Positions 7,669-28,000 of a DNA stretch of 29,135 bases are shown piece by piece. The notes beneath the pieces are model-generated. The model ran no database searches. It was not told the origin of the DNA and saw only the letters and a list, made by a program, of their open reading frames with translations. The translations under genes were made by a program, and so were the position numbers. Where the stretch lies: positions 1-29,135 of IMG/VR virus record IMGVR_UViG_3300025082_000046; one strand, 5' to 3'. This DNA comes from a virus. The first letter of the stretch is position 1. The number at the start of each line of letters is the position of its first letter.

Positions 7669-7893
7669 ATGGTTGCAAAGAAGAAGCCCGCAGAGAAGCA
7701 GACGTTCCTGCGTCCAGAGCATAGGCTGGAACTATTGGAAGCTATTAATAAAGCGAAAGATGTTATTGATAGCAACATTGAATGTGGTTCAGCTATGTGT
7801 GATCTAGTGCATGATGCACAGCATAAGTTAAATGTGGTAGCCCGTAAGCTAGGCTACAAGCAAGAGAACTGGTACAGTAACTTCACACTATAA
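7669..7893 (+). CDS. Small basic unknown protein (74 aa)
   Basis: ATG at 7669, two bases after the previous stop, with AAGGAGAA at good distance. Lys-rich N-terminus (MVAKKKPAEKQ) followed by helices with two Cys (C39, C44). No family recognised. It lies between the annealing-like protein and the RNR with only short gaps, so it shares their transcript. Confidence 0.6.
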   Translation: MVAKKKPAEKQTFLRPEHRLELLEAINKAKDVIDSNIECGSAMCDLVHDAQHKLNVVARKLGYKQENWYSNFTL

Positions 7894-7904
7894 GGAGGAT
7901 GGGT

Positions 7905-9596
7905 ATGAAGCTTGGCGAATCAGAGAGGAACAAGCGTGAAGAACAACGGCATAAAATGTTTAGGACAAGCTATGGAGAGGATATCTTCAAGAGTAAGTAT
8001 GCACAGAATCAGTATGAGACTTGGGCGGATCGCACGAAGCGTGTGGTCAACTGGGTATGCGGTGACATGGATGGCACGAAGAATATACTGCTATCTAAGG
8101 ACGATCAAGCGCAGCTTATCCAGTTCATCACGGACTTCAAGTTCATGCCGGGCGGACGGTACCTCTGGTATGGTGGTAGAGAGGCACGATTCTTCAACAA
8201 CTGCTACTTATTGAGGCTGGAGGAAGATTCAAGAGAGGAGTGGGCTGCTCTATCTCAGCGAGCGATGTCTTGTCTGATGACAGGGGGTGGTATAGGAGCA
8301 GATGTTTCCCTGTGCAGGCCGGGCGGAAGAGCATTGCGTCGAACAGGAGGCGTATCGTCAGGCCCACTTCCTCTCCTCTCTACGCTCAATGAAATAGGAA
8401 GGAATGTAATGCAAGGGGGGAGCAGGAGATCAGCCCTCTACGGCTCTCTCAGTGCCTCTCACGGGGATATATGGGACTTCCTACACTACAAGAACTGGCA
8501 TGACAAGAAGATAGCTGGGTCTGAGATGACTATCGCTGATGCTAAGAAGGCAGACTTTAACTACCCTGCCCCATTAGATATGATGAACATCAGCACCAAC
8601 TACAGTGATGGATGGTTGAACGGTAATGACAATGAAGTATTCATGGAGAACTGTAGACAAGCCCTGATGACAGGTGAGCCTGGATTCTCCTTCAACTTTG
8701 GAGCGCAAAAGAATGAGACACTCCGCAACGCCTGCTGCGAAATACTCAGCGAGTCAGACTCGGACGTTTGTAATCTTGGCTCTGTTAATCTTGCGAACAT
8801 TGATACTGTGGAGGAGTTTAAAGATGTGGTGCATCTCGCGTCTAAGTTCCTTGTTTGTGGGCTTATACGAGCGCATCTACCATACGAAAAGGTAGAACGA
8901 GTAAGGCAACAGAACTCTCGCATCGGACTGGGCTTGATGGGGCTGCATGAATGGCTGCTCAAGCGTGGACACAGGTACGAGATGAACGATGAACTTAAAA
9001 AATGGATGAGAATATATGAATCAGAATCAACCCGATCCGCTAACGAGCATTGTGAACGACTTTTTCTCAACCGTCCTAAAGGATACAGAGCGATTGCTCC
9101 GACTGGGACTATTAGCATCCTCGCAGGAACAACCTCTGGTGTGGAACCAGTCCACTCCGTGGCATACCGCAGACGCTACCTTACAGATGGCACAAGATGG
9201 AAGTATCAGTTTGTCGTTGACGGTACGGCCAACTACCTCATCGAGCGAGGCGTCAAACCAACAGACATTGAATCTGCAGTGGACCTCGCAGAAGACGTTG
9301 AGCGACGGATAAAGTTTCAATATGAACTACAGAAATATGTGGACCACGCTATTAGTTCTACTATTAATCTACCTGAGTACGGAACTGATCTTAATAACGA
9401 CAGCCATGTCGAACCATTCAGTAAGTTACTAAGGAAGTACGGTGGTGGACTACGTGGTCTTACATTCTATCCATCAGGTTCCAGGGGTGGGCAGCCGATC
9501 AACCCAGTACCTTATGAAGAAGCTATTACCAAGCGTGGAATAATTTTTGAAGATAACTCAGAGGAGCAATGCCTCTCAGGAGTATGTGGGATATGA
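7905..9596 (+). CDS. nrdJ: Adenosylcobalamin-dependent (class II) ribonucleotide reductase (563 aa)
   Basis: Converts ribonucleotides to deoxyribonucleotides for phage DNA synthesis using adenosylcobalamin. Numbered from the chosen ATG at 7905 (six bases after AAGGAGG; the ATG at 7899 touches the Shine-Dalgarno): redox Cys 100 in NNCY, thiyl-radical loop N275-x-C277-x-E279 (NACCEI), second redox Cys 289 in CNLGSVNL, the APTGTISILAGTTSGVEP barrel motif, and the C-terminal reducing pair C556/C561 (CLSGVC). The SGPLPLLSTLNEIGRNV and GGSRRSAL segments are those of the monomeric, triphosphate-type enzyme. At 563 aa it is well below the 739 aa of the Lactobacillus enzyme, so it is a compact form, possibly lacking part of the allosteric or insertion region, but all catalytic Cys are present. 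A host making or importing B12 is implied. Confidence 0.92.
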   Translation: MKLGESERNKREEQRHKMFRTSYGEDIFKSKYAQNQYETWADRTKRVVNWVCGDMDGTKNILLSKDDQAQLIQFITDFKFMPGGRYLWYGGREARFFNNCYLLRLEEDSREEWAALSQRAMSCLMTGGGIGADVSLCRPGGRALRRTGGVSSGPLPLLSTLNEIGRNVMQGGSRRSALYGSLSASHGDIWDFLHYKNWHDKKIAGSEMTIADAKKADFNYPAPLDMMNISTNYSDGWLNGNDNEVFMENCRQALMTGEPGFSFNFGAQKNETLRNACCEILSESDSDVCNLGSVNLANIDTVEEFKDVVHLASKFLVCGLIRAHLPYEKVERVRQQNSRIGLGLMGLHEWLLKRGHRYEMNDELKKWMRIYESESTRSANEHCERLFLNRPKGYRAIAPTGTISILAGTTSGVEPVHSVAYRRRYLTDGTRWKYQFVVDGTANYLIERGVKPTDIESAVDLAEDVERRIKFQYELQKYVDHAISSTINLPEYGTDLNNDSHVEPFSKLLRKYGGGLRGLTFYPSGSRGGQPINPVPYEEAITKRGIIFEDNSEEQCLSGVCGI

Positions 9597-10878: not shown

Positions 10879-11139
10879 ATGCCTACATATGAACAGAAGG
10901 ACAATGATGGTGTCGCATTTAAAAACGACAAGAAGTCTGAAGACTGGCACGCTGACTGGAATGGATCAGCCATGATCGACGGTACTATGTACTGGGTGAA
11001 CATGTATGATAACATTTCAAAGGGTGGTAAGGACTACAGGAAGATCAGGTTCAAGCCACAGAATGGTGTCGGTATTGCCCAGGGTGCAGCTAAGTTCAGT
11101 GCACCTGAAGTCAAGAAAGATGATGATATCCCGTGGTGA
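10879..11139 (+). CDS. SSB-like small protein with acidic DDDIPW tail (86 aa)
   Basis: Beta-rich core (GSAMIDGTMYWVNMYDNISK then YRKIRFKPQ) followed by a low-complexity linker and the acidic C-terminus KKDDDIPW. Bacterial SSB proteins end in DDDIPF, which docks on recombination and repair partners. A matching tail here suggests an SSB or SSB mimic able to recruit the same host proteins. The core is shorter than a normal OB-fold SSB (about 110 residues). The position between conserved recombination-type genes and the RecB-like exonuclease supports this. I regard the tail as seen and the function as inferred. Confidence 0.55.
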   Translation: MPTYEQKDNDGVAFKNDKKSEDWHADWNGSAMIDGTMYWVNMYDNISKGGKDYRKIRFKPQNGVGIAQGAAKFSAPEVKKDDDIPW

Positions 11140-11924
11140 TTAAGTACAAAGACGGGAGAGAGTTCCAACTCATCTTCGATGCAGACATGCACAGTTACAA
11201 GGTGGATGGGGAGAAGGTACCATCAGTCACGAAAGTGATTGATGCGTGCTTTCCCAAACACCTGACTGACTGGGCTGTAGCAGAGGGTGCTGACTTCTTC
11301 AAAGCGTCGCTAGAGCCTTATCGCTTAGCACCTACTGAGGAGTCAGGTACCTTCATGCTACCTGCTAAGGTGGTAACTCACATCCACAAGGGTATACAGA
11401 CAGCCTACAAGTCTATTGGTAGAGAGGCTGCCCAGATAGGTACGATAGTACACAACTGGATTGAGTCTGCCATCGAGTACAAGATGAGTGGTGGTACTGC
11501 ACCCAAGGTACCTAAAGGTGACGAGGTACGCAACTGTATTAAGGCATACAAGGCGTGGTCAAGAGAGAGGAAGCCAGTATGGTTAGCTGCCGAGCAGAAG
11601 GTATACTACCATGATCCTGGTGGTGTGAACTGCTACGCTGGTACTGTTGATGCTCTCGCTGAGATAGATGGTAAGCTATGTATCATTGACTTCAAGACAT
11701 CGAAGAAGATATACAAGCCATACCACCTACAGGTAGCAGCATATGCCCAGGCTATTTCAATGCAGGAACAGATTGATATGCCTATGGCTATGATACTAAG
11801 GTTTGATAAAGAGACTGGCATCTTTCAAGAGAAGATGTTTGATCCGCGACAACACATTCACATGTTCTTTCATTGTCTTGATCTGAAAGCATGGAACACA
11901 GCGAGGATAAAACATGAAGGATGA
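11133..11924 (+). CDS. RecB-like PD-(D/E)XK exonuclease (263 aa)
   Basis: Shows the full RecB/Cas4-type motif series: H107 in GTIVHNW, E154 in AEQKVYY, D173 in GTVDAL, D186-x-K188 in IIDFKTSK, and the QxxxY motif at 200-204 (HLQVAAYAQA). Start is GTG at 11133 (or the adjacent GTG at 11136), overlapping the stop of the SSB-like gene. Phage enzymes of this kind produce 3' ssDNA for annealing-type recombination; with the SSB-like and annealing-like proteins nearby it forms a plausible recombination system. Length and key residues are intact. Confidence 0.8.
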   Translation: MVIKYKDGREFQLIFDADMHSYKVDGEKVPSVTKVIDACFPKHLTDWAVAEGADFFKASLEPYRLAPTEESGTFMLPAKVVTHIHKGIQTAYKSIGREAAQIGTIVHNWIESAIEYKMSGGTAPKVPKGDEVRNCIKAYKAWSRERKPVWLAAEQKVYYHDPGGVNCYAGTVDALAEIDGKLCIIDFKTSKKIYKPYHLQVAAYAQAISMQEQIDMPMAMILRFDKETGIFQEKMFDPRQHIHMFFHCLDLKAWNTARIKHEG

Positions 11925-12177
11925 GGACAAGAGTTATCTGTGGATGATACAGCACCACATTGAGGCACTGGTAACGCTGTTAGATATGAACAAGCAGCAT
12001 GAGATACTGAAGCCTGATGTGGCCCATGACTTTATACACTACATGGCTACCCAAGCAGAGACAGTATGGGAAGAGAAGATATGGAAGCAGGTAGCTTGTA
12101 TTCTTTTAGACGCGCCCAAAGAAAAAGGGGAGAACGTATTTCAGTTCTCCCCTGATTCGCGTGGTCCAGATACATGA
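11914..12177 (+). CDS. Small unknown protein, last gene of the rightward arm (87 aa)
   Basis: ATG at 11914 inside the end of the exonuclease gene (11-bp overlap) with AAGGATG-like spacing only. The N-terminal 65 residues are helical and protein-like (MKDEDKSYLWMIQHHIEALV). The last ~20 residues are encoded across the hairpin at 12127-12152 and may be poorly conserved. It overlaps the convergent 82-aa gene by 37 bp. No family recognised. Confidence 0.6.
   Translation: MKDEDKSYLWMIQHHIEALVTLLDMNKQHEILKPDVAHDFIHYMATQAETVWEEKIWKQVACILLDAPKEKGENVFQFSPDSRGPDT
12127..12152 (-). terminator. Intrinsic terminator of the leftward late arm
   Basis: GGGGAGAAC (12127-12135) pairs with GTTCTCCCC (12144-12152) around an 8-nt loop. 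Read leftward it is followed by TTTTTCTTT. The stop codon of the 82-aa gene is inside the loop. There is no T-run on the rightward side, so it is directional. Confidence 0.8.
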
Positions 12178-12389
12178 TCTTCGATGATCCGTATATCAAA
12201 TACATTTATGGTTGGTATGTACCAGAGATTACCCCAGTACCCATCCTCCTTGGTCATGGCTAGTGTTGTCCACTCTTCATCTTGATTAACGAGCAGACCA
12301 AAGGTATGCGTATAGTTACGCTCTGGCTTATGTTCGGCCCAGCCACCATCAGTATATGAATCTAACCATGTAACTTCAATAAGTTTCAT
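12141..12389 (-). CDS. Small conserved-looking phage protein (82 aa), last of the late arm
   Basis: Starts M-K-L-I-E-V-T-W-L-D-S and has the pattern of a small beta-sheet protein seen near the ends of phage operons (VTW-x-D ... GLLVNQDEEWTTLAMT ... GNLWYIPTINVFDIRII). Function unknown. Its ATG overlaps the stop of the 35-aa membrane gene (ATGA). The stop lies in the loop of the late terminator, and the gene is antisense to the end of the rightward arm. Confidence 0.65.
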   Translation of the reverse strand: MKLIEVTWLDSYTDGGWAEHKPERNYTHTFGLLVNQDEEWTTLAMTKEDGYWGNLWYIPTINVFDIRIIEDHVSGPRESGEN

Positions 12390-12493
12390 ATTTCACCTAG
12401 CATAGTATGGTTAGCCCATAGGACTAGCATTAAAGGTATCCCTATTATACATAGGATCATTAGTAAGGCGAACAATAGTTCGCCTTTTTTCAT
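12386..12493 (-). CDS. Tiny membrane protein (35 aa) inside an antisense terminator
   Basis: A short frame on the minus strand: M-K-K-G-E then an almost continuous hydrophobic span (LLFALLMILCIIGIPLMLVL) and a short polar tail. Its ATG overlaps the TGA of the upstream lipoprotein-like gene (ATGA at 12493-12490), and its TGA overlaps the ATG of the 82-aa gene (12389-12386). Both junctions being flush, with Lys-Lys before a single membrane span, argues strongly that it is a real gene. It may be a holin-like or antiholin-like peptide of the lysis region. Its first 10 codons coincide with the rightward terminator at 12465-12490. Confidence 0.6.
   Translation of the reverse strand: MKKGELLFALLMILCIIGIPLMLVLWANHTMLGEI
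12465..12490 (+). terminator. Intrinsic terminator of the rightward early arm
   Basis: AAGGCGAAC (12465-12473) pairs perfectly with GTTCGCCTT (12478-12486) around AATA, followed on the plus strand by T through 12490. Read leftward it has no T-run. It lies about 290 bp beyond the last rightward gene and within the coding region of the leftward 35-aa gene. Confidence 0.8.
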
Positions 12494-12894
12494 TTGTTCT
12501 TGCCTTTAAATTTAACTGGTCCCGGCATGAGCCATGAGAATATCATAGGTACTATAATTATCAACAATAATAGCCAACCTCCTGTCTCGACCAGCTGCCC
12601 AAGCAGACTCCAGAAGTTATCAGGTGCACAGCTATCCACACTCACCCCCTTCGATGATCCTTTTATCATCACTTCCGTCGCCACATCCCCCACAAATGCA
12701 CCTGTCATGCCTCCCAGTATCGGCGCAGTCACACCCGAACTCAATGCAGTCGCCACAGTAGCACCTGCGCCCGTCGCTAGGGAGGTAATCCCGGCTTTCT
12801 TTAGTGTCGTGCATGATATTAAGAGGACCGAAGCGGTCGACCAAGATATTGCCTGTAGGCCAACTAGACAACCACGTCCGGTGAACCCCACCAT
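12490..12894 (-). CDS. Gly-zipper membrane protein with possible lipobox (134 aa)
   Basis: The frame is open from 13134, but the upstream part runs antiparallel through other genes. The ATG at 12894 gives a short signal-like N-terminus with a hydrophobic segment ending in L-I-S-C (Cys28), a fair lipobox. Then comes a Gly/Ala/Thr-rich stretch (GITSLATGAGATVATALSSG, GGMTGAFVGDVATEV) typical of Gly-zipper membrane proteins, a C-terminal hydrophobic span (WLLLLIIIVPMIFSWLM) and a basic tail (KFKGKNK). Start uncertain (ATG at 12906 or 12978 also possible). It overlaps the 40-aa gene by 31 bp. Location beside coiled-coil and TM genes suggests a lysis/spanin-type or ejection-channel role; unproven. 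Confidence 0.55.
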   Translation of the reverse strand: MVGFTGRGCLVGLQAISWSTASVLLISCTTLKKAGITSLATGAGATVATALSSGVTAPILGGMTGAFVGDVATEVMIKGSSKGVSVDSCAPDNFWSLLGQLVETGGWLLLLIIIVPMIFSWLMPGPVKFKGKNK

Positions 12895-12986
12895 CCTGTC
12901 AACCATCCGACCAATGCTATCACAGCCAGCACGCCAGCTATGCACCAGAATTTCTTTCGCTTTGATAATTCTTTCCATTTTTCCAT
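12864..12986 (-). CDS. Tiny single-span membrane protein (40 aa)
   Basis: ATG at 12986 overlaps the TAA of the 87-aa gene (TAATG), with AGAGGA 6 bp upstream. Basic N-terminus (KWKELSKRKK) followed by a hydrophobic span at about residues 13-30 (FWCIAGVLAVIALVGWL) and a short tail. The ribosome binding site, coupling junction and positive-inside topology make it a convincing gene. It overlaps the lipobox protein in another frame. Holin-like or regulatory peptide of a lysis cluster are possibilities. Confidence 0.65.
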   Translation of the reverse strand: MEKWKELSKRKKFWCIAGVLAVIALVGWLTGWWGSPDVVV

Positions 12987-25060: not shown

Positions 25061-28000
25061 TTACCTCGCGTTTGAGTATTTGAATGGTGATTCTGCGAAT
25101 GCTATGTATAGATATGTTTCAGCAACGTTCGGATCAGTTGTATCCCTGTTTTTGAATCCGTTGGAAACTATATCAATGAATTCTGTTGATGTATCCTCTA
25201 CTGCACTATCGTTTGCCTCAAGTTCATAATTATCGACGTTATACCCTACCCTCTTATTATCAAACATTTGCCAGTCGCTAGTGCTGTCCACAGATTTAGT
25301 CATGACAAATGCTGGTCTGAATCCTGTGTAGACAAAAGTTCCATCCAGATCCCCATTACCCTCGTAGTTACCTATCTTTGAGTATCCTTCGACTGAATGG
25401 AAGCACCAAGCTATTATGTCTACCCCACTGGCATTAATATCTGTTCCAGTACCAAGAGTAAATACAGAAGCAGTAGGGGCTGTATCATTAAACTGAACGT
25501 TATCATCACCAGCAGCAGGAGTTTGATTCAAGTACATAACGTATTCCCAAGCTGTCGGGATGCTGTCCGAACCTACCCGGAAAGCAGCAGAACTATCTAG
25601 TCTTTTAGCGATAATCAGTTCAGGTGCTTCGGATAATCCATGTCCTACAGTATTTACAGAACCACTCCCTGTCCACCCAACTATACTAAAACCAGCCGTA
25701 GTATTTGCACTTACTGTTACTGTGCCAGCTATATCCCCGGCTGTATTTGTTACTCCAGTCCCACCAGCTTTCCAGTTCCATGCAACCATTCCAGTACCAG
25801 TTGTATCGCTGTAATCAGTATCAGCACCAACAGTAAACCCATCTGCACCAAATGCGGTTAGTCCAGTAGAGTCCGTAGTTTGGGCCGTACCCGGATCATT
25901 TGACACAAGCGCCTTTGTCACACCACGAACCACATCCGTCAACTTACTATCGTAAGCACTACCTCTGGATTTAAGCCATACAAAATCAGGTTGGAAACCA
26001 ACACCTGTTTTAGCACCAGCACCATCATCGTAGAGTATTGTATTAAAATAATCACCCGGCAACGCAATCTCAGGTGACGCTAGATTTGAGGTGCATAAGG
26101 CCAAATAATCGGTGGGTGGCTCGTAATAGAAATCGCCTTTCTCGTTAGCGTCCTGATTGCCTTGTGCTGTTTTGTTTCCGGCAAAACTAGAATCAGAACC
26201 AAAGTTAAAGTACGCATCACAAGTATTATATCCTGCTACAAAGAAACAAACATCGTCAGTAATGCCGGAAACAAGTTCGCCTTGAGTTGCGTTGTTCTTG
26301 TAAAACGTAACAGCCCCAGCATCAGAGTCATAAGCAATACCAATAATATCTCCGGTTGCCCATGTTGCTCCATAGCTTTCCCCGGATGTACCACCAGTAG
26401 CTTCTGTGTCTGCATTACCATTGCGTCTATAAGCCCAAATCCCAGCTACATTGGAACCACCGTATTTACCATCCCCTAAAAGTTGTGCATTACCAATACC
26501 AAAACAGTCATAAGTTGACGACGCTGATGTTGTGTAAATACCCTCACAGTAATATTTACCAGTACCGGATGGCATATTTATAGTGGAAGGTGCATACCGT
26601 CTATATGTTCCATCAGTATTGGAATACTTTAGATTTCCTTCAGCAAAAGTTACATTCGTTGTACCATCATCACCTATGATTGGATTGAGCGTAGCAAAGT
26701 TATTAGTCGGCGTATCAATCATCTGATCTGTAGCAACCAGATTGGTTACAGCGAAGGCGTTACCATTCCCAGAACTATCTGCGCCTAGTCCACCATCCCA
26801 GTCTGAGTGGATCAGGAGTTTAGTGTTTGAATCTGCGGTGAATGCTGTGGTGGATGGTGTGAATGTTGTGGTGTATCTCGCGGTATCGGAGATACGGATT
26901 TCGTCCATGTAACCGGCCCATTCAACTCCACTGCCTGCTCTATCTCCAATCATAGCCGGAACCGCTAAATCTGGCATAGAGTTTGTACCTACTGCAGTAT
27001 ATTCGACTTGAGCAACCGCAACACCATCAATATAAATCGTTATTGATGTTGTTTCTCTTACAACCGCTATGTGATGCCATGTTTCTGCGGTTATTCCAAC
27101 AGTTGTATAAGATTCTGCTAACGGCACCCCACTACTTCTTGCATCGAAATAAATTCTACCAGTGGTAGAAGAATGATATAATTGCACCCTATTGTTTGTA
27201 TCTGCCCATTGTGCATATATGAACTTCATACCCACTAAAGTATTTACATAAACCCAACCTTCAATAGTAAAATTCCCAGTACCTCCACCAAGTTGCCAGT
27301 CGCTTGAATCAGGCATACTCAAGTAATCCCCAGTGCCATCGAACTTGATGGATGAGTCACCAATCTTCTTCTCTGCTCTTGTATTGGTTACATCACCGTT
27401 GGCTGTTATGTAGTGTCTTGATGCGTCAGTTGAACTATCATCCGTAAAGGTTGTTCCACTGTCTGAACCATCCATATGAAGAAGTAATTTTGTACTTGAA
27501 TCAGCAGTAAAAGCGGTAGGACTAGAGACAGTTCCACCACCTTGACCAAAATCAGTAAAGGTTGTGCCATCAGGATAACGGCAGACACTACTTACTCTAA
27601 CCTCATCAATAAACCCAGACCAATTATCGTCATCTGTATTTGATGTATACTTTGCTCCAATACGAGAAACCCAAGTCCCACCAAAATCTGTTGTCCAACT
27701 GCTTAACGTATTCTTCTGAACACCATTGACATACCATCTACCCACACCATTATCACGAACAAGTGCCAAATGATTCCAAATATCTAACCCACCACTATCA
27801 AGGTCTTCTGTCGTATTACTCCACCCAGTACCAAACCAATTAACTCTTGTTCCTGCACCATCATTTGATATATGTCCTGTAATACGGCTTGTACCATCCG
27901 AAAAGTCCCATAAATACCTACTTGGATAAGCATCCCTCCTCCACCAACATTCAATAGTAAAATCACCTGTTCCAAAACTAAAATCACTAGCATCTGATAC

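Follow-up and report, generated by a model that had tools for sequence, protein, structure and literature searches.

The window analysed here is the whole of an IMG/VR virus record, 29,135 bases from a compact, uncultured marine tailed phage. Its rightward arm, devoted to replication and nucleotide metabolism, includes genes for ribonucleotide reductase, HNH and a PD-(D/E)XK exonuclease as well as an ssDNA-binding-like gene; those of its leftward (structural) arm include tail and virion genes, and the two arms converge at about 12,150. A preliminary description had labelled the arms early and late, which is a reasonable reading of this gene content (ribonucleotide reductase, exonuclease and ssDNA-binding rightward, tail and virion leftward), from which the timing is deduced. 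The junction comprises the following genes and predicted elements:

11133 to 11924, rightward strand: PD-(D/E)XK exonuclease gene, penultimate in the rightward (replication) arm (phrog_298, E=5e-35; Pfam PDDEXK_1)
11914 to 12177, rightward strand: 87-aa gene, the final gene of the rightward arm, containing the leftward terminator
12117 to 12153 including the tail, leftward strand: predicted leftward intrinsic terminator, with a 10-bp stem (12153-12126), a loop of 8 and the tail TTTTTCTTT
12141 to 12389, leftward strand: 82-aa gene, the final gene of the leftward arm, as are its homologues in relatives
12386 to 12493, leftward strand: 35-aa hydrophobic (single-TM-like) gene, the next leftward gene, with the rightward terminator in codons 3-10
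12465 to 12490, rightward strand: predicted rightward intrinsic terminator, with a 9-bp stem (12465-12486) and the tail TTTTTTC

The coding ends of the 87-aa and 82-aa genes share 37 nt, tail to tail. None of the 82-aa, 87-aa and 35-aa proteins matches a Pfam or PHROG family; relatives of the 82-aa protein weakly match phrog_25889 (function unknown), and the 87-aa protein, searched on its own, gave no matches. Homologues of the latter lie immediately after the exonuclease in five relatives (L001, L002, L004 and L006, with a conserved RGPDT C-terminus, and L132), and the exonuclease itself is ~51% identical in relatives. The window DNA has no match in the phage collection and none to Rfam or tRNA models. 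Named phages that share the exonuclease have another gene layout and are not close relatives; Pelagibacter phage HTVC112P, with an exonuclease of 28% identity, was rejected as a close relative on these grounds.

The neighbouring leftward locus encodes a lipobox-bearing protein (12493-12906; LLISC-TTLKKAG...). A 40-aa single-TM peptide on the same strand (12864-12986; MEKWKELSKRKKFW...-like) is encoded in another frame across its start. The two are conserved as a pair in many relatives and their arrangement resembles that of a nested spanin pair; a search for the lipoprotein in named phages found no match. In L029 (744-1043 of the flipped contig, leftward), and also in L154, L184 and L203, the lipoprotein gene adjoins a gene for a ~99-aa protein (GGGCSGYQ...SCGCG) that looks like the A-type Fe-S carrier (IscA/HesB) proteins; no such gene was seen beside the lipoprotein gene in the window.

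Both putative terminators consist of a GC-rich stem followed immediately by a U-run. The leftward one, with stem arms AGGGGAGAAC and GTTCTCCCCT, a dG of -17.4 and the tail TTTTTCTTT, straddles the end of the 82-aa gene: the 5' arm is formed by the final codons of that gene, and the loop contains its TGA stop. The U-run lies antisense to the Lys/Glu codons AAA GAA AAA of the 87-aa gene, and the position of the hairpin at 12126-12153 agrees with the earlier placement inside the last rightward gene. The rightward one (stem arms AAGGCGAAC and GTTCGCCTT, dG about -13, T's up to 12490) starts 4 nt past the start codon of the 35-aa gene, a leftward gene as had been proposed, and its U-run is antisense to two lysine codons (AAA AAA). 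It lies ~290 nt beyond the last stop codon of its own arm, farther than packing demands. The claim that one-sided T-runs make each site directional holds when the hairpins are read on the opposite strand: the leftward hairpin is then followed by GATTCGCG and the rightward hairpin by ACTAATG, neither of which is a U-run. A single bidirectional terminator at the junction was rejected for the same reason, as the T-run of each site is one-sided.

Sites of this strength are rare in the window. At a dG of -13 with a T-run, just three were found (884-906 rightward, 12126-12153 leftward and 12463-12488 rightward), whereas dinucleotide shuffles of the whole window (n=40) gave 0.55 on average and never more than 2. 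A weaker scan of 8-17 kb returned 13 sites vs 6.1 expected, with the two junction sites ranking top. Between 1000 and 12463 the rightward strand has no further site that reaches a dG of -10, and on the leftward strand of the structural arm the sole other such site (27513-27540) is weak, with a dG of -11.3. From the near-absence of other sites within the arms, the two junction hairpins look like the principal terminators of both arms. Another strong hairpin, at 879-906, is flanked by a T-run in either direction (CTTTTTG rightward, dG -16.5; TTTTTTT leftward, dG -11.6) and lies ~100 nt ahead of the first rightward ORFs; it is a possible two-way terminator where the arms diverge.

Relatives were gathered using the exonuclease, the 82-aa family and the neighbouring lipoprotein as queries, and grouping at 85% identity gave 27 distinct junctions, the window included; L036-L040, which matched the 82-aa motif alone in unrelated higher-GC contexts, were left out. 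Homologues of the 82-aa gene close the leftward arm across a family of uncultured marine phages. In at least 25 of the 27 junctions, the final genes of the two converging arms share coding sequence, the overlap ranging from 4 to about 215 nt. The gene content on the rightward side varies, with many relatives carrying a metallophosphoesterase and another small gene after the 87-aa homologue. The longest overlap, ~215 nt, was seen in L003 (7655-7963 rightward, 7749-8123 leftward), where both genes have homologues elsewhere; other long convergent overlaps (107-188 nt) occur in L008, L012, L149, L175 and L178. One contig with the exonuclease, phosphoesterase and convergent junction of the family (L211, PBPX01000013.1) is binned in an 'Actinomycetota' MAG; the contig is probably viral, or else it hints at a host.

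The closest junction relative, L029, is 82% identical to the window at the nucleotide level and ends inside the 82-aa gene; within the first 39 codons of that gene the two differ by three synonymous codons and one nonsynonymous codon. The 35-aa gene, which is found only in these two genomes, is conserved between them (three amino-acid and eight synonymous codon differences), and the rightward terminator is kept. Two of the synonymous changes, AAA>AAG in codon 3 and TTA>CTT in codon 10, replace an A-U pair of the stem with G-C, a compensatory change that supports coding frame and hairpin alike. Neither L029 nor the near-identical contigs L022 and L023 cover the leftward hairpin, and selection on it is judged by analogy with the sites of relatives only. 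In L166, L174, L180 and L182 such hairpins differ at 0 of 27 nt vs 20-27% in the flanks, and between L171 and L184 two of 36 hairpin positions have changed, both preserving pairing (G-U/A-U and U-A/U-G), vs 15% in the flanks. Structure is thus kept by selection in relatives, for the rightward site in L029 and for analogous sites elsewhere. Taken together, the compensation in L029, the pairing-preserving changes and the constancy of hairpins amid diverged flanks support the view that these hairpins are functional.

The preliminary description had looked to the position of terminators in relatives as a check, and the crossed arrangement does recur. In L132, the closest junction that covers both sides (exonuclease 62%, 82-aa gene 64%), both terminators are crossed like those of the window, yet they are formed by unrelated hairpins at other places, with dG values of -22 and -15. 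Relative to the stop of the 82-aa homologue they lie as follows:

-46 to -9, leftward strand: L132 leftward terminator, inside the 87-aa homologue
+126 to +152, rightward strand: L132 rightward terminator, inside the 82-aa homologue

Other relatives have a rightward terminator alone (L030-L035, L171/L184) or a leftward one alone (L166/L174/L180/L182, L208), in each case inside the opposite gene, and L154 has one two-way hairpin. U-runs opposite lysine codons are also found in L132, L030, L171 and L166. Strong sites numbered 6 in 18.9 kb at the 27 junctions vs 4 in 204 kb elsewhere (Fisher P 6e-5), with a cut-off picked after the window had been seen; the counts with the window excluded are 4 in 18.2 kb vs 3 in about 175 kb.

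The same comparison bears on whether the hairpins terminate transcription at all. They could instead act within mRNA that is not terminated at them, with 12465-12486 controlling translation of the 35-aa gene or stabilising the leftward mRNA and 12126-12153 protecting the rightward mRNA. Both stems are strong on either strand, and the one in the 35-aa gene lies right at its start, as such a role would have it. However, the T-runs occur on the terminator side only, and in L132, L030 and L171 the rightward hairpin sits midway along the leftward gene or in its 3' half, always with a rightward U-run, which makes this reading extremely unlikely.

A strong intrinsic terminator is absent in most of the 27 junctions; the crossed pair is therefore not required by the layout, and another mechanism must act in most relatives. 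Head-on collision of polymerases could be that mechanism, and it could also be the chief cause of termination in the window, with the hairpins only positioning the event as in convergent genes of E. coli. Terminators positioned by collision are known in bacteria (PMC13082048), and bidirectional, collision-driven termination has been described (Ju 2019 and Wang 2023, as cited in that paper). Against this, the window has two separate one-way hairpins with good U-runs rather than one shared between the strands, and early and late polymerases may not occupy the DNA simultaneously; we regard collision as the chief cause here as very unlikely.

Our preferred reading, which we hold to be probably correct, is that the window carries two working one-way terminators, each within coding sequence of the opposite strand, where the arms are packed past the point of abutment, and that their main role is to end and insulate the operons. 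Because the coding ends overlap, any terminator past its own stop sits in a gene of the other strand, and the overlap would thus force each terminator into the genes of the other arm. Two strong one-way intrinsic terminators would then end the two converging operons and insulate them with almost no intergenic DNA, the U-runs being read from Lys-rich AAA codons of the opposite gene and the stems being fitted in through synonymous codons.

If both terminators work, overlapping transcript tails are the expected outcome, given that both elements resemble genuine directional terminators and that their evolution agrees. The predicted feature is:

12120 to 12490, no strand assigned: tail-to-tail transcript overlap of about 370 nt, deduced from the terminator positions

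Mutual antisense RNA would follow physically from crossed, working terminators, and there is good support for the overlap as a product of evolution. The earlier estimate of about 360 nt covering both leftward genes stands for the length, ~370 nt on the terminator positions, and for the 82-aa gene, which the predicted rightward RNA would span entirely together with its ribosome-binding site. It does not stand for the whole of the 35-aa gene, of which about the start codon would lie outside the overlap, as would its ribosome-binding site.

This geometry invites a regulatory interpretation, in which early rightward RNA pairs with late mRNA or blocks leftward polymerases, so that the 82-aa and 35-aa genes are delayed or tuned, and RNase III trims the duplex. 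RNase III processing could occur only if both RNAs coexist; overlapping convergent RNAs are substrates of the enzyme in other bacteria (PMC7154746), and LUZ100 is a phage for which antisense RNA to structural genes has been reported (PMC10134795). Early antisense would extend over ~310 nt of both late genes, the ribosome-binding site of the 82-aa gene included, and the rightward terminator is sited beyond need yet conserved in L029. It is important to point out, however, that antisense cover is not conserved in its extent: the RNA would span all of the terminal late gene in the window, ~2/3 of it in L132 and ~1/3 in L171 and L030, and other junctions have no strong terminator. In addition, the start region of the 35-aa gene is left uncovered, this target is confined to the window and L029, and the affected genes are only the last ones, at the 3' end, in a long structural operon. 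We therefore consider antisense timing at this locus unlikely. The broader proposition, a selected antisense timer across the phage family in which early RNA would restrain the terminal late genes until early transcription fades and the terminator position would set the strength, appears distinctly unlikely. Since antisense cover is variable and most relatives lack a strong terminator, packing fits better than a conserved antisense switch. On the packing reading, termination in vivo would still give roughly 370 nt of complementary RNA, and antisense effects on the terminal genes would probably be a mild by-product.

A compact phage can apparently close two converging operons with hardly any non-coding DNA, its terminators being written into the opposing codons, and the related junctions, some with both terminators and others with one or none, provide a natural series for the effects of overlap. 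The arrangement adds a well-documented example to a known kind. Convergent operons of S. aureus and Rickettsia have overlapping 3' ends, antisense tails and 'excludon'-type transcription (PMC7154746, PMC3027695), and the phage junction is like them in that convergent RNAs with complementary tails would end at terminators well downstream of the coding ends. Of the overlapping convergent RNA 3' ends that define this type, the window has the 37 nt coding overlap and the crossed terminators, from which the RNA overlap is predicted; unlike in the bacterial operons, both phage terminators are separate one-way hairpins inside coding sequence of the opposite strand. Bidirectional intrinsic terminators between convergent genes are known from E. 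coli ynaJ-uspE (PMC13082048) and from a set in Bacillus cereus (PMC5381666). These share with the window the hairpin termination of converging units and the compensatory evolution of stems, but there one hairpin with U-runs on both sides serves both genes, whereas neither junction site has this form: the window has two crossed hairpins ~310 nt apart with one-sided T-runs. In the phage LUZ100, antisense transcription has been measured downstream of the capsid gene, within the structural region, with a regulatory role only hypothesised (PMC10134795). Structural-arm genes of a tailed phage would be covered by antisense RNA in the window as they are in LUZ100, and regulation is hypothetical in both; in contrast to LUZ100, the antisense RNA of the window is predicted and would lie at the end of the opposing operon.
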